Of a stretch of DNA of 36,636 nucleotides, positions 12,049-18,826 are shown piece after piece. Location: contig JAHDCC010000007.1 in the NCBI GenBank assembly GCA_020630065.1, forward strand, positions 134,739-171,374. The letters run 5' to 3'. Each line of letters opens with the position of its first letter. The stretch's first letter is position 1. The notes beneath the pieces are model-generated. The model had not been told where the DNA came from, searched no databases, and worked only from the letters and a program-made list of their open reading frames with translations. The position numbers and the translations under genes were made by a program. This DNA is from Acidimicrobiales bacterium (GTDB lineage: Bacteria; Actinomycetota; Acidimicrobiia; Acidimicrobiales; SZUA-35).

Positions 12049-13593
12049 TTAGTTGACTGTGAACTCAATTCGTCGGTTGACCGCTTTGTTCTCAGGAGTG
12101 TCGTTCTCAACCTTAGGGACCGTTTCGCCATAGCCTTTGGTTGTCATTCGACCAGCGTCAATGCCTTTGCCCTCAAGGTACGTCTTAACCGCATCAGCAC
12201 GATTCTGGCTGAGAGTTAAGTTGCTGGCGTCTTCGCCGTCGCTGTCGGTGTGTCCACCAATCTCAAACGTAACGTCAGCGTTTGATTCGAAGTAGGCGGC
12301 TGCCTCGTCGAGAACGGCCTGACCTTCAGCAGTGATTACTGACTGATTAACCTCAAACGTAATCGGAGCCAAATCGAGCTGCTCATTCACCGTTTCGGTT
12401 GTGTCGCCAGCATCGTCGCCTATGGTCAGTTGGTTATCGACTGAGGTGACGCCTTCTACAGCTGCTGCTGCTTCTTCGGCTGCGGTTTTGGTTGCTTCGT
12501 CGGCTACTGCGCCGGTGAGTGTGACGACTCCGTCTGCGTCGACGCTGCCGGTTACTCCGTCGTAGTCTCCGAGTGCGGCGTCAACTGATGCTTGAAGATC
12601 TGCATCAGCGGCGTCGCCAGCATCGTCGCCTATGGTCAGTTGGTTATCGACTGAGGTGACGCCTTCTACAGCTGCTGCTGCTTCTTCGGCTGCGGTTTTG
12701 GTTGCTTCGTCGGCTACTGCGCCGGTGAGTGTGACGACTCCGTCTGCGTCGACGCTGCCGGTTACTCCGTCGTAGTCTCCGAGTGCGGCGTCAACTGATG
12801 CTTGAAGATCTGCATCAGCGGCGTCGCCAGCATCGTCGCTCTCGGCTGCAACGGTTGATTCCGCCGAGACACCAGCATCGTCATTGCTGCATTGTGTAAG
12901 TAGCCAAGCGAGGAAAATCAGGGCGGCAACAACCGCTATAGCAGGCCACAACCAGCTCAGGCCGCCTTTAGAGGTCTTGGCCGCAGTTGAACCTACCGAG
13001 CCAACAGCGTTCTTTGCGCCGACTGCACCAGCAGCTCCGACAGCGCCTGCGGTGCCAACGGCAGAGGCAGCGCCGGAGCGAGTCGTGCTAGCGGCATTTG
13101 AAACGCCAGCAAGCCGACCACTCCTCACCAAGTCGGCCTTCTCAGAAGACAGCAGGCTCGCTACTTGAGTGTTTGATAAGGCACCTTCGGTGCGTTTTTT
13201 AGCGATAATCCCAGTGATGATTGGGGCAAGTGCTGGAAGCGCCTTCGAAATGATAGACCCGCTCAAACCGGAAGAACTGGCAAGTTTCGCAACCATGCCA
13301 TCTAGACCGTTACCGAAGATCGAGCTAACAAGTGAGCTGCCTGAAGTGTTACCAGACAAGGAACCGCCGATATTGCTGAGTACAGAACCGTCGGCGTTGT
13401 CCAACAGGTTCCCAACTTGATCGGCTCCACCTGGAGTGTTTGCTTTGTCGGCCAATCCTCCGATGAGTGCAGGGCCAGCTGCGCCGAGCGCCCGTGATGT
13501 ATCGGTGCCGTCGGTGCCTAACGCTCCACCAAGTTTGGATAAGGAATCTCCTTGATTGAACAAGTCGATTGCTGTTTCGAATACGGAAGACAT
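12049..13593 (-). CDS. DUF937-BON-BON-OmpA envelope protein (ArfA-like)
   Basis: This 514-residue protein combines an N-terminal DUF937 region (about 1-160), an Ala/Gly-rich linker, one transmembrane helix (WLWPAIAVVAALIFLAWLLTQC, about 215-236), two BON domains and a C-terminal OmpA domain (ITFEVNQSVITAEGQAVLDEAAAYF...GGHTDSDGEDASNLTLSQNRADAVKTYL). The OmpA part keeps the Asp and Arg used to bind diaminopimelate in peptidoglycan. M. tuberculosis ArfA (Rv0899) has a comparable TM-BON-OmpA order. The likely topology is N-terminus in the cytoplasm and OmpA domain in the wall. The two BON units are identical at DNA level (see the repeat entry). Short AGVSAESTVAAESD-type Ala/Asp linkers join the modules. 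A GAGAGAGG box precedes the ATG. Confidence 0.88.
   Translation of the reverse strand: MSSVFETAIDLFNQGDSLSKLGGALGTDGTDTSRALGAAGPALIGGLADKANTPGGADQVGNLLDNADGSVLSNIGGSLSGNTSGSSLVSSIFGNGLDGMVAKLASSSGLSGSIISKALPALAPIITGIIAKKRTEGALSNTQVASLLSSEKADLVRSGRLAGVSNAASTTRSGAASAVGTAGAVGAAGAVGAKNAVGSVGSTAAKTSKGGLSWLWPAIAVVAALIFLAWLLTQCSNDDAGVSAESTVAAESDDAGDAADADLQASVDAALGDYDGVTGSVDADGVVTLTGAVADEATKTAAEEAAAAVEGVTSVDNQLTIGDDAGDAADADLQASVDAALGDYDGVTGSVDADGVVTLTGAVADEATKTAAEEAAAAVEGVTSVDNQLTIGDDAGDTTETVNEQLDLAPITFEVNQSVITAEGQAVLDEAAAYFESNADVTFEIGGHTDSDGEDASNLTLSQNRADAVKTYLEGKGIDAGRMTTKGYGETVPKVENDTPENKAVNRRIEFTVN
12403..12839 (-). repeat. Perfect 210-bp tandem duplication of the BON domain
   Basis: Copy one (12403-12612) and copy two (12613-12822) are identical base for base by eye, and a 17-nt partial third copy follows. 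Each unit encodes 70 residues: a BON domain (DLQASVDAALGDYDG...TLTGAVADEATKTAAEEAAAAVEGVTSVDNQLTI) plus the linker GDDAGDAADA. The lack of any silent difference implies a very recent duplication or continued homogenisation. Confidence 0.93.
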
Positions 13594-14783: not shown

Positions 14784-14791
14784 CCGAATTG

Positions 14792-16381
14792 GTGGAAGAA
14801 TCGTCAACTGTAGATCTCGGCATAGATGGCATTGGCCCGGCCACCCCACTTGCTGCTGGTGGGTTTGCCCAGGTCTATACAGCCGAGCAAACAAGTTTTC
14901 GGCGGATGGTTGCGGTCAAAGTCTTGTTCGCCGCGCAGCACAATGAAGTAGCGTTTGGGCGGTTCGAACGAGAATGTCATGCAATCGGTGCCGTCTCGGA
15001 CCATCCCAACATTGTTGTAGTCCACGACCGGGGAACCACCCAAGCGGGACATCCCTACATCACTATGGAGTTCCGGAACGCGGGATCTCTTAGCGATCGG
15101 TTGAAATCCCAAGGGACGATGACAAGTCACGAAATTATTGAGCTAGGAATCAAGATCGGCGAGGCGTTACGTGTCGCCCACAACGCCGGTGTCCTGCATC
15201 GAGACGTTAAACCAGCGAACATTTTGCTCTCATCGTACGGCGAGCCTGCTCTGGCCGACTTTGGCATCGCCAGAATTGAGGGCGGGGATAAAACGACCAG
15301 CGGGAAGTTCTCCGCCAGCGTTGCCCACGCCCCGAGGGAAGTTCTAGATGGGAAAGAACCAACCGAGCGATCGGATATCTACTCGTTGGGTTCGACGATG
15401 TTTGAGATGTTCGTCGGGCACCCTCCGTACACCGTTGAAGATAGCGATTCGGTGTGGCCTCTGATCAGCAAAATCATGACGGAGCCCGTGCCTGATCCTG
15501 CCATGTTTGGGATGCCCGATGCTTTGGCACAAATAGTCCAAAAAGCACTGAGCCACGATGCCGAAGCTCGGTATGGGTCGGCGGGTGAGATGATCGAGGC
15601 TCTGAACGGTCTCGTTCTTGATCACTCCAATGACGGGCAACAGACGGTTCAGCGTGGTCCCGCCGTCGGTGGATCTGCGACCGCACCTTCGTCGGCTCGT
15701 ATCAACGATGCCGCTGATGGCGATTCGGCGGTCACGGTTGCCCAACCTCTTCAAGGATCTTCGTCATTTGTCCAAAGCGACCATTCTCCTAAGAAGCGTC
15801 GCGTCAGCCCGATGTCAGCGGTGTTTGCTCTGCTGGCTCTCGGCGGTGTATGTGTTGTGGCTGCGCTGATCATCTTCCGGCCGATTAGTCTGCCGTCAGA
15901 GCTGAAGTTAGAGGCAGCGTCTGAAGGCCCGTTAGAAGCGGGAGAGTCGTATTCGATGACGCTGACCAATGCCGATGAGGAGTCAGTATTACAACTGCTC
16001 GTCGATGGTGTTCCCGTCGGTGACGCTGCTCCTGGGCTTCCCAACTATCCCGCAGAACCAGGTCGGCATAAGTTGTCGATTGAAATAGACGGCGACGAGG
16101 TAACCAACACCGTTGACGTGTACGTTTCTTCTGGTTCAGCGGAAGGACAATATCGAGCTAATTTGGCTTCGGTCAGTCAACAACGTCAGAACTGGGTCGA
16201 TGCCTTAACCGAATACGACAAACTCGTCGAAGCCGGGCATAGTTCAGTCGAGGTCCATGCGAGTTCTGATGGTGAATGGTGGCGGTTTTTTGTTGATGGT
16301 TTCGAGGAGCGAGATGAAGCGCAGAACTATTGCGACAGTTTCGACCTGCCGGTGAAGAAGTGTTTTGTGGGTGAGTTATAG
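14792..16381 (+). CDS. Serine/threonine protein kinase with transmembrane segment and SPOR-like tail
   Basis: This protein of about 529 residues carries a complete Hanks-type kinase domain (about 15-280): glycine loop PLAAGGFAQVYTAE, VAVK lysine near residue 43, HRDVKPANILL at about 136-146, DFGIAR at about 156, and SDIYSLG. A Ser/Ala-rich juxtamembrane linker leads to KKRRVSP and one TM helix (about 331-352). The extracytoplasmic part has an Ig-like stretch (LKLEAASEGPLEAGESYSMTLTN...) and ends in EGQYRANLASV...WWRFFVDGFEERDEAQNYCDSF, which resembles a SPOR peptidoglycan-binding domain rather than PASTA. It may sense cell-wall state and phosphorylate cytoplasmic targets. The GTG at 14792 is favoured over TTG 14789 by the upstream TATAAT. 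Confidence 0.9.
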   Translation: MEESSTVDLGIDGIGPATPLAAGGFAQVYTAEQTSFRRMVAVKVLFAAQHNEVAFGRFERECHAIGAVSDHPNIVVVHDRGTTQAGHPYITMEFRNAGSLSDRLKSQGTMTSHEIIELGIKIGEALRVAHNAGVLHRDVKPANILLSSYGEPALADFGIARIEGGDKTTSGKFSASVAHAPREVLDGKEPTERSDIYSLGSTMFEMFVGHPPYTVEDSDSVWPLISKIMTEPVPDPAMFGMPDALAQIVQKALSHDAEARYGSAGEMIEALNGLVLDHSNDGQQTVQRGPAVGGSATAPSSARINDAADGDSAVTVAQPLQGSSSFVQSDHSPKKRRVSPMSAVFALLALGGVCVVAALIIFRPISLPSELKLEAASEGPLEAGESYSMTLTNADEESVLQLLVDGVPVGDAAPGLPNYPAEPGRHKLSIEIDGDEVTNTVDVYVSSGSAEGQYRANLASVSQQRQNWVDALTEYDKLVEAGHSSVEVHASSDGEWWRFFVDGFEERDEAQNYCDSFDLPVKKCFVGEL

Positions 16382-16443: not shown

Positions 16444-16469
16444 TAAAATATTGGGTCCAGACTCTGGAC
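16444..16469 (+). promoter_or_regulatory. -10 box with a small palindrome ahead of the first NYN gene
   Basis: TAAAAT (16444-16449) is a good -10 element. It is followed at the expected transcription start by a perfect 6-3-6 inverted repeat, GTCCAG and CTGGAC around ACT (16455-16469), which could be an operator or a 5'-UTR hairpin. No -35 is evident. Confidence 0.45.
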
Positions 16470-16478
16470 GGCAAGGTT

Positions 16479-17042
16479 GTGATCGAGTTAACATGGTTGT
16501 TCATGGGGCAATCTACTGCTAGGTCATTCAGTGGGGATACGGGATCCGGATATGAAGGATCTTTTGATACACCGAAAACATTAAGGTTACGTAATTCAGC
16601 TCCTGCTGTTTATTTGCCTCCAAGTATCGGGGATAGTCGAGGTCGTGCGGACTCGCTTGTTCGTCTTCCGAAAGTGATCCTTCTGATTGACGGAGATGAA
16701 GTGGCGGATGCTGGTTGGCCTGGCTACCCCATGCCGGTCCGACGAAAGTCTCTAGTCGATAATGTCGCTCAGCTTTGTTCTCGAACGGGTGCAGCCGCGC
16801 AGGTTGTTTTTGATGCGGGGGTAAGTCGCCGTTGCCCACATTCGAAACGGGACCAATCGGTTGAGGTGCGGCTGGCGGCGTCAATGGTTAGCCCGGCAGC
16901 AGCGTTGGGTGAACTGGTTGCTAGGCATTCCACGAACCGCCCTTTGGTTGTTGTTTCCTCCGACCCAAAGTTGGCACACGAAGGCAATCATCGGGCTGAA
17001 CCGATGTTGGTTACGGACCTGCTAGACCTGTTTCTCCTGTAA
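16479..17042 (+). CDS. NYN (YacP-like PIN-fold) domain protein, first paralog
   Basis: This 187-residue protein has a disordered N-terminus (about 1-60) and a NYN domain, the PIN-like nuclease fold of the YacP group. The three acidic sites expected for metal binding are visible: LLIDGDEVADAGWPG (in place of the usual VDGYNV), AAQVVFDAG, and LVVVSSDPKLA. The SLVDNVAQLCSRTGAAAQVVF segment matches the 'LL..L..L..RTGA.VTVVFDG' family pattern. It is probably an RNA-processing nuclease or RNA-binding protein. GTG 16479 is used; an in-frame ATG at 16503 is an option. A second, more diverged paralog follows at 17171. Both end in the same LDLFL tail. Confidence 0.75.
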   Translation: MIELTWLFMGQSTARSFSGDTGSGYEGSFDTPKTLRLRNSAPAVYLPPSIGDSRGRADSLVRLPKVILLIDGDEVADAGWPGYPMPVRRKSLVDNVAQLCSRTGAAAQVVFDAGVSRRCPHSKRDQSVEVRLAASMVSPAAALGELVARHSTNRPLVVVSSDPKLAHEGNHRAEPMLVTDLLDLFLL

Positions 17043-17170
17043 GGCGCAGGTTCTGCAACAACCAGGCTTCTTTATGTCGTAGATTATTGGCGATGACTGG
17101 TGTGGCTGGCTTCAAATAGCTCTTGACTGTAGTACTGGCGCGGCCCAGTTTTTGGGTATAAAGTCCCGAT

Positions 17171-17755
17171 ATGTCATTCCAAACCGCCGCAATAACATCG
17201 GAGTTGACGCTGTTACAACAGACTGTCGATTCACAAGCTGAACGTATTCGATGCCTTGAGAACCTGGTTGATCATCTTCCCTTGGATGAGACAACGATGC
17301 GTCTCCACAAATCGCCTCCAATCGATGTCCCCGCTGCTTGTTCCACCGAACTGGAAGAAGCCGAATATTTAGTTAACGTCCCCGGTGTCGTTCTGATTCT
17401 TAGTGGTGATCCAATCGCCAGCGTAGGGTGGCCATCCATCGAAGTTGCCGAGCGTAGAGGTGCCCTGGTCTATAATGTGGCTCGACTCTGCTCTCGGACC
17501 TCGGCATCGGCCCAAATCGTCTTCGACGGTAACACCAGCGGGATTTGCCCGCCATCACTGTACGAATACAACGTCGAGGTTCGGTTAAGTAACCAGCCGG
17601 TGTCTTCGGACCAAGCTGTCCACGAGTTGGTGCAGACCTACCCCAAAAAGAAACCTGTTGTGTTGGTGACCAACAACGAAGCGTTAAAGTCGGTTTCAGT
17701 CGGGCGAGCGAATTGCCTTGATACCGAATTCTTCCTCGACCTGTTCTTGAGCTAA
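17171..17755 (+). CDS. NYN domain protein, second paralog with coiled coil and degenerate active site
   Basis: This 194-residue paralog of the preceding gene shares GVVLILSGDPIASVGWPS, NVARLCSRTSASAQIVFDGN, VEVRLS and the ending FFLDLFLS. It begins with a coiled coil (SELTLLQQTVDSQAERIRCLENLVDHL). The first catalytic Asp of the family (IDG) is Ser here (LSG) and the SSD motif is replaced by TNN (VVLVTNNEAL); only VFDG keeps its acid. It is therefore probably catalytically dead and may act as a regulatory or structural partner of the first paralog. A TAAAGT box (17159-17164) 6 nt before the ATG suggests its own leaderless promoter. Confidence 0.75.
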   Translation: MSFQTAAITSELTLLQQTVDSQAERIRCLENLVDHLPLDETTMRLHKSPPIDVPAACSTELEEAEYLVNVPGVVLILSGDPIASVGWPSIEVAERRGALVYNVARLCSRTSASAQIVFDGNTSGICPPSLYEYNVEVRLSNQPVSSDQAVHELVQTYPKKKPVVLVTNNEALKSVSVGRANCLDTEFFLDLFLS

Positions 17756-17836: not shown

Positions 17837-18826
17837 GTGTCTGTAGTGCTTGCCATAGAAACGAGTTGTGACGAGACCGCCGTATCGGTGGTACGAAACG
17901 GGGTCGAGGTCCTGTCGAACGTCGTTTCTAGCCAAATCGATCTCCACGCCAAGTTTGGGGGAGTCGTGCCTGAAGTTGCGAGTAGAGCTCATCTCGAGTC
18001 ACTTGAACTTGTGGTGAACCAGGCAATAACCGACGCTGGAATCGCGGTGGAAGAAATCGGCGCTGTTGCTGCGACCCATGGGCCGGGCCTGATCGGAGCG
18101 CTACTGGTCGGAGTGAGCGCGGCGAAAGCTCTGGCTCTGGCCTGGGGAGTCCCCTATGTTGGGGTGAACCATATGGAAGGTCACCTCTTCGCTGCGCTTC
18201 TTCAGGAACCGAATTTGCCGTTGCCAGCCGTTGTTTTACTTGTATCGGGCGGGCATACCATGATTGTCCATATGAAACAGCTTGGTTCGTACGAGATCGT
18301 CGGCTCGACTATCGACGATGCGGCTGGGGAAGCGTTTGATAAGGTCGCCCGATATTTGGGTCTTGGGTACCCCGGTGGACCCATTATCGATCGCTTAGCA
18401 GTTGATGGTGATCCGGCTGCGATCAGTTTTCCTCGTGCGATGCCGGGAGAACTCGACTTTTCGTTTAGTGGGTTAAAGACTGCGGTCGTTAACTATGTCA
18501 GAAAAGAACCTTCGACGTCGAATGAAGATATTGCCGCTAGTTTTCAGCAGGCGGTTGTCGACGTTCTGGTCGACAAAACGTTATCTGCCGCCCGTCAGGT
18601 GGGGGCTGCGAGCGCGTGTTTAGGTGGGGGAGTGGCAGCAAATTCTGCGCTGCGATCTCGATTTGTCGAAGCATGCAACGAAGCCGAAATTAGTTACCTG
18701 GTTCCCGAGCGAGAATTCTGTACTGACAATGCGGCCATGATTGCCTCTGCCGCCCAGTGGCGGCTGGACAATGATGGGTCAACCCCGCTTGATGCAGGGG
18801 CCAACCCGTCATTGAAGTTGGTGTGA
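17837..18826 (+). CDS. tsaD: tRNA N6-adenosine threonylcarbamoyltransferase
   Basis: This 329-residue protein transfers the threonylcarbamoyl group from TC-AMP to A37 of tRNAs that read ANN codons, working with TsaB and TsaE. The ASKHA fold is complete: VLAIETSCDETAVSVV, FGGVVPEVASRAHLE, ATHGPGLIGALLVG, the metal-binding NHMEGHLFAA (His112 and His116), LLVSGGHTMIV, GEAFDKVARYLGLGYPGGPIID, and ACLGGGVAANSALR. The start is GTG 17837 with TATGGT (17825-17830) 6 nt upstream and no Shine-Dalgarno sequence. tsaB, tsaE and rimI, often linked in actinobacteria, are not adjacent here. It ends 11 nt from the convergent ABC ATPase gene. Confidence 0.96.
   Translation: MSVVLAIETSCDETAVSVVRNGVEVLSNVVSSQIDLHAKFGGVVPEVASRAHLESLELVVNQAITDAGIAVEEIGAVAATHGPGLIGALLVGVSAAKALALAWGVPYVGVNHMEGHLFAALLQEPNLPLPAVVLLVSGGHTMIVHMKQLGSYEIVGSTIDDAAGEAFDKVARYLGLGYPGGPIIDRLAVDGDPAAISFPRAMPGELDFSFSGLKTAVVNYVRKEPSTSNEDIAASFQQAVVDVLVDKTLSAARQVGAASACLGGGVAANSALRSRFVEACNEAEISYLVPEREFCTDNAAMIASAAQWRLDNDGSTPLDAGANPSLKLV

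Follow-up and report, generated by a model that had tools for sequence, protein, structure and literature searches.

A tandem pair of predicted NYN domains with incomplete catalytic sites, and degeneration of the same site across an Acidimicrobiales family

Among described proteins, Rae1/YacP of Bacillus subtilis (PDB 5mq8, 5mq9; Pfam PF05991) comes close to N1 and N2, the two proteins analysed here, through a predicted fold in common, while the likeness in sequence is weak (E 0.002 with the family profile). In our alignment Rae1 has the motifs VDGYN, ADE and TSD, which N1 and N2 do not. Replacement of the tandem D426/427 of the MARF1 NYN domain by alanine is reported to have strongly reduced its activity (PMC6294520), and in a study of a B. 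fragilis NYN protein cleavage reportedly failed in the D13A variant (PMC11346440). The equivalents of MARF1 D426/D427 fall at the Asp-Asp pair position of the NYN alignment. The MARF1 paper also describes the SMG5 PIN domain as without catalytic residues and without RNase activity (PMC6294520); by that description it would be an analogue of N1 and N2, a nuclease fold without the catalytic acids, although it is eukaryotic and belongs to another PIN branch. Two further kinds of protein are close to N1 and N2. An intact, trpD-linked coiled-coil NYN protein has a C-terminal domain homologous to N1 and N2, but it has four catalytic acids, an N-terminal domain and a trpD neighbour, all three of which they lack. 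A giant coiled-coil protein with a degenerate NYN domain shares with them the degenerate site with GD, L157 and D176, whereas its N-terminal domain, LP, W146 and N171 are missing from N1 and N2, which are solo domains.

The window, that is, the whole 36,636-nucleotide stretch of Acidimicrobiales DNA analysed, holds N1 and N2 as adjoining plus-strand open reading frames, with a protein kinase gene on one side and tsaD on the other:

14789 to 16381, plus strand: protein kinase, neighbour (Pfam Pkinase, E 5.9e-39; TTG start)
16479 to 17042, plus strand: N1, solo degenerate NYN protein (187 aa, GTG start)
17171 to 17755, plus strand: N2, solo degenerate NYN protein (194 aa)
17183 to 17269, plus strand: N-terminal helix of N2 (residues 5-33) with a heptad pattern, likely a short coiled coil (AlphaFold2 helix, heptad score)
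17837 to 18826, plus strand: tsaD, neighbour (Pfam TsaD, E 5.3e-98)

The first in-frame start of N1 is the GTG at 16479, not 16444, with the ATG at 16503 as a possible alternative. Over 153 columns N1 and N2 share 41% identity (single comparison, E 8e-35). A promoter or terminator common to the two was considered and dropped, as matches numbered 1 and 3 where shuffled sequences gave 1.0 and 1.9. The neighbouring kinase, read by eye, has a membrane segment and an outer part. At 14 of 29 tsaD loci of relatives, the gene directly upstream has weak similarity to TsaD and is presumably TsaB-like; the best match to that gene in the source genome lies on contig C54, and N1 and N2 stand upstream of tsaD instead. 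Farther away, the minus-strand gene at 12049-13593 encodes a DUF937-BON-BON-OmpA protein (Pfam) whose two BON units both lie inside a perfect 210-nt tandem duplication (12403-12822 of the window), either a very recent event or an effect of assembly.

Searches against NCBIfam returned no match for N1 or N2, and a scan of the genome contigs queried with N1, which reaches close relatives only, confirmed no relative. Pfam NYN_YacP (PF05991) was seen in both, at 16.7 bits in N1 and 19.6 bits in N2, below the gathering cut-off of 24.6; all 17 intact members scanned have a hit to it at E 0.1 or better, and one giant (G038) exceeds the cut-off, at 33.2 bits. The AlphaFold2 model of N1 (26 alignment rows) has a mean pLDDT of 77.7, with residues 1-39 below 50, and that of N2 (25 rows) a mean of 88.2; the domain is confident in each. 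Both models find Rae1/YacP as their best match (Foldseek E 5.9e-06, Z 16.0 for N1; E 3.8e-07, Z 15.4 for N2; in each case rmsd 1.5 Å over 114 residues), so the fold that the models predict for N1 and N2 is NYN/YacP. The preliminary description, made from the DNA alone, had called the genes tandem same-strand NYN paralogs, which agrees with these matches and with the pairwise identity. The coiled coil that it described in N2 is also borne out, as a coiled-coil-like N-terminal helix that N1 lacks: besides the modelled helix, the heptad score of the N2 N-terminus (a score of our own) was equalled in 32 of 5000 shuffles, and the score of N1 is zero.

In the family alignment, the residues in the place of the catalytic site are as follows:

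16689 to 16697, plus strand: N1 D71-G72-D73, first Asp kept, GYN of the intact relatives changed to GDE
16812 to 16814, plus strand: N1 D112 of VFD, kept
16896 to 16901, plus strand: N1 A140-A141, in the place of the catalytic Asp-Asp pair
16962 to 16964, plus strand: N1 D162 of SSD, kept
17402 to 17410, plus strand: N2 S78-G79-D80, first catalytic Asp lost
17525 to 17527, plus strand: N2 D119 of VFD, kept
17609 to 17614, plus strand: N2 D147-Q148, in the place of the Asp-Asp pair, first Asp present and second absent
17675 to 17677, plus strand: N2 N169 (TNN), in the place of the last catalytic Asp

The motifs had been read correctly beforehand, as IDG, VFD and SSD in N1 and LSG, VFDG and TNN in N2. 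Taking three acids for the site was right in that N1 keeps them, and fell short in that the whole NYN site also needs an Asp-Asp pair that had been overlooked. Against the full set of four acids (Asp, Asp-Asp or Asp-Glu, Asp), N1 reads D/A-A/D and N2 reads S/D-Q/N, and both are incomplete. That N2 has no usable site is borne out, as it lacks the first Asp, the second acid of the pair and the last Asp. The companion claim, an active N1, is not supported: at the pair, N1 has Ala-Ala.

The source genome (G000) has a third copy (C7:84061-84531), which closes an open frame of 1174 residues that, read by eye, is rich in coiled coil. With a profile of the intact members, searched at E up to 10, N1, N2 and this giant are the only matches in the source genome, which is about 95% complete, and no intact homolog of the trpD-linked type was found there. 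An NYN domain match occurs in 38 of 39 genomes of this Acidimicrobiales family, and the counts that follow take one main copy for each of the 38. Matches occur in 68 of 198 genomes of the order, and 61 of these 68 genomes do not belong to the family; in the phylum, the intact-member profile finds a match at E up to 1e-4 in 157 of 296. Catalytic residues were read for 49 of the 61 matching non-family genomes, with 12 left out, and additionally at locus L097. Of these 50 relatives, 49 keep the first Asp, the Asp-Asp or Asp-Glu pair, the last Asp and GYN, and the pair is present in all 50; the single exception (L174) has a frame cut by a stop codon, counts as a gap among the residues, and was left out of the tree, the conservation ranks and the counts of column marks. 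Thirty loci from the phylum, partly from the same genomes, show AD[DE] in 29, DGxN in 29 and the SD pattern in 28. One of the 12 genomes left out above (G101) was read in this set, where its intact-type protein (L196) has DAYN in place of DGYN.

Within the family, none of the 38 main copies keeps all four acids. GYN has become GD plus a variable residue in every one of them. At the catalytic pair, 18 copies have Ala-Ala, 19 have other residues and a single one has Asp-Glu (L153, genome G018), with Asn for the last Asp. No other end branch of the tree is as long as that of L153, and its genome is 55% complete. The two outer acids called catalytic in the preliminary description are only partly conserved here: the Asp of IDG is Asp in 33 copies, Glu in 2, His in 2 and Gln in 1, and the Asp of SSD is Asp in 24, Asn in 13 and Ser in 1. 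An Asp precedes the last one in 36 of 38, and the Asp of FD is kept in 33 of 38. Ranked by conservation among 156 columns, those of the old catalytic site (four acids, the Asp of FD and the Asn of GYN) hold places 1-16 in the intact relatives and 45-106 in the giants. Seven other family genomes each have one additional paralog in an open frame of 307-390 residues, and the four acids are complete in none of these. Six family genomes contain a second group of degenerate NYN-like paralogs (L155-L160), whose branches are very long. Small YacP-like NYN proteins are encoded at L064, L065, L069 and L073; DGxN, AADD and TAD are kept at three of these loci, and VTADK- or VSADK-like variants replace TSD. 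A small intact NYN protein as replacement enzyme was discarded, being present in 6 of 39 family genomes and absent from the source genome.

The open frames of the giants run from 728 to 1547 aa (34 of 38, those away from contig edges). The median open frame is 1014.5 in the family (34 of 38 copies, 4 at contig edges dropped) and 481 outside it (55 of 65 rows, short edge rows kept). A model of the N-terminal domain, built from five intact members, recognises that domain in all 11 giants compared with it (E between 6e-28 and 7e-12), and finds no match in N1 or N2 at E up to 10. Gene order was compared for 22 of the 38 main copies and 13 intact loci, picked by flank length. Upstream on the same strand, all 22 giants and 11 of the 13 intact loci have a gene with Glycos_transf_3 Pfam domains, which we take to be trpD; the giant of the source genome has it too (L098), whereas N1 and N2 adjoin the kinase and tsaD instead. 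An RNase_T/GIY-YIG gene on the opposite strand stands between trpD and the NYN gene in 7 of 22 giants and 9 of 13 intact loci; a same-strand exonuclease match at L101 (48.9 bits) is probably spurious and is uncounted. The series trpD, often an opposite-strand RNase_T/GIY-YIG gene, then the NYN gene (L098-L117, L075-L096) is a conserved Acidimicrobiales neighbourhood. Profile comparison (hhalign) of the family alignment, N1 and N2 included, with the intact relatives gives 99.9% and E 2.8e-35. Given the common N-terminal domain, the upstream trpD and this profile homology, the giant gene most simply lost its catalytic acids in place, with an open frame about twice as long.

The N1/N2 tandem pair occurs in 1 of 39 family genomes. 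Taken by themselves, N1 and N2 match the intact-member profile at E 2.5e-24 and E 1.7e-22. In alignment columns, the pair shares with the giants D47 (GYN to GD), L157 and D176 (LDLF), present in 38, 36 and 38 of 38 giants and in 0, 1 and 2 of 49 intact relatives. It also shares with them the loss of Phe at column 123, where N1 and N2 have Leu; Phe stands there in 40 of 49 intact relatives and in none of the giants. N1 and N2 retain, however, the L34 and R78 seen in the intact relatives, and are without the giant marks LP (columns 110-111), W146, N171 and TDD. A tree computed without the motif columns unites N1 and N2 in one clade (SH-aLRT 89) that is not nested in the giants (98) and is separate from the intact relatives (94). 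Support for the placement of the pair is weak and its end branches are long (1.17 and 0.80); joining it to its own giant or to that giant's group was rejected in neither case by the AU test (p 0.42 and 0.35). In alignment A3, N2 was entered twice. Simple descent from within the giants is weakened by the ancestral columns 34 and 78 and by the missing giant marks. Since the pair shares marks with the giants yet keeps some ancestral residues, the most likely course is an early departure from the giant line, after GYN had been lost and the breakdown of the site had begun. Some of the catalytic site may have survived in the ancestor of N1 and N2, and loss of the Asp-Asp pair may have happened independently in N1, in N2 and in the giants, with N2 still holding the first Asp.

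At four-fold sites, N1 and N2 agree in 9 of 39 shared positions, against 24% expected at random; because these sites are saturated, the duplication is, on sequence evidence, old, or the copies diverged fast. An old duplication had been proposed from the difference in wobble-base preference. The difference itself is real (p 0.002 for all codons, 0.017 for four-fold codons), but it says nothing about age: N2 is near balance (C+A 0.52), and eight other plus-strand genes measured in the window range from 0.38 to 0.64 in G+T. The bias lies within the range of neighbouring genes, so it was set aside as a clock.

The preliminary description saw in the two genes an active/inactive pair, N1 cleaving RNA and N2 serving as its dead, regulatory heterodimer partner. 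N1 does keep D71, D112 and D162 where N2 has lost the first and last, its SSD is closer to the intact state than the TDD of the giants, and its L34 and R78 have an ancestral look; inactive paralogs that control a working partner are also reported, the prozyme for example (PMC5201418). Nevertheless, N1 has Ala-Ala where 50 of 50 outside relatives have Asp-Asp or Asp-Glu, has lost the GYN Asn that all 49 relatives with that stretch keep, and carries the GD, L157 and D176 of the degenerate branch. With no complete active site in either protein and no intact homolog of this type found in the genome, we judge such a pair improbable; both genes have the look of copies out of service, and not of a working enzyme next to a dead one. 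A remodelled site, in which the giant domain and perhaps N1 would cut through the first Asp, the GD Asp, the FD Asp and the TDD Asp, is conceivable because the giants mostly keep the first Asp and an Asp beside the last one (GD in 38 of 38, the Asp before the last in 36, the first Asp and FD in 33 each). We regard it as rather unlikely, as the first Asp is Glu, His or Gln in 5 of 38 and the last is Asn or Ser in 14 of 38, the Asp columns concerned fall in conservation rank, and N1 (SSD) and N2 (TNN) are without the new TDD Asp. The long end branches and the occurrence of the pair in a single genome of 39 would suit two decaying, functionless duplicates, yet both frames are intact, 62 aligned residues are identical though the shared four-fold sites are saturated, and the domain folds are confident in the AlphaFold2 models; decay thus seems quite unlikely to us.

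On balance we favour, as the probable reading, that N1 and N2 are freestanding degenerate NYN domains that came early off the giant line and act as non-catalytic binding modules. Their homology is to the C-terminal domain of the actinobacterial trpD-linked protein, which is built of an N-terminal domain, a coiled coil and an NYN domain. Both proteins would be non-catalytic by the usual metal-dependent mechanism, and each may retain the ancestral surface facing RNA, the ribosome or a partner. The short coiled coil of N2 could serve dimerisation, or docking on the coiled coil of the giant, and N1, by itself, might bind that partner too or be a rival for it. In that case N1 and N2 would tune the giant, or compete with it for its ligand, and would not form a nuclease switch. 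A wider reading is more tentative, and we hold it possible but doubtful: a trpD-linked NYN RNase turned in place into a pseudonuclease with a doubled coiled coil, its dead domain becoming the binding tip of the giant scaffold and early solo copies becoming its partners or competitors.

The family-wide degeneration in place, together with solo copies beside giants, is new; among the matches listed in our literature search, titles and abstract openings named no work on a degenerate actinobacterial NYN protein. The case cautions that fold alone is insufficient for calling 'NYN domain' genes RNases, and that three residues without a family alignment are insufficient for proposing an active/inactive pair. 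For the family itself, a nuclease site lost throughout while the gene is kept in place amounts to a natural experiment on the roles of an NYN domain other than cutting.
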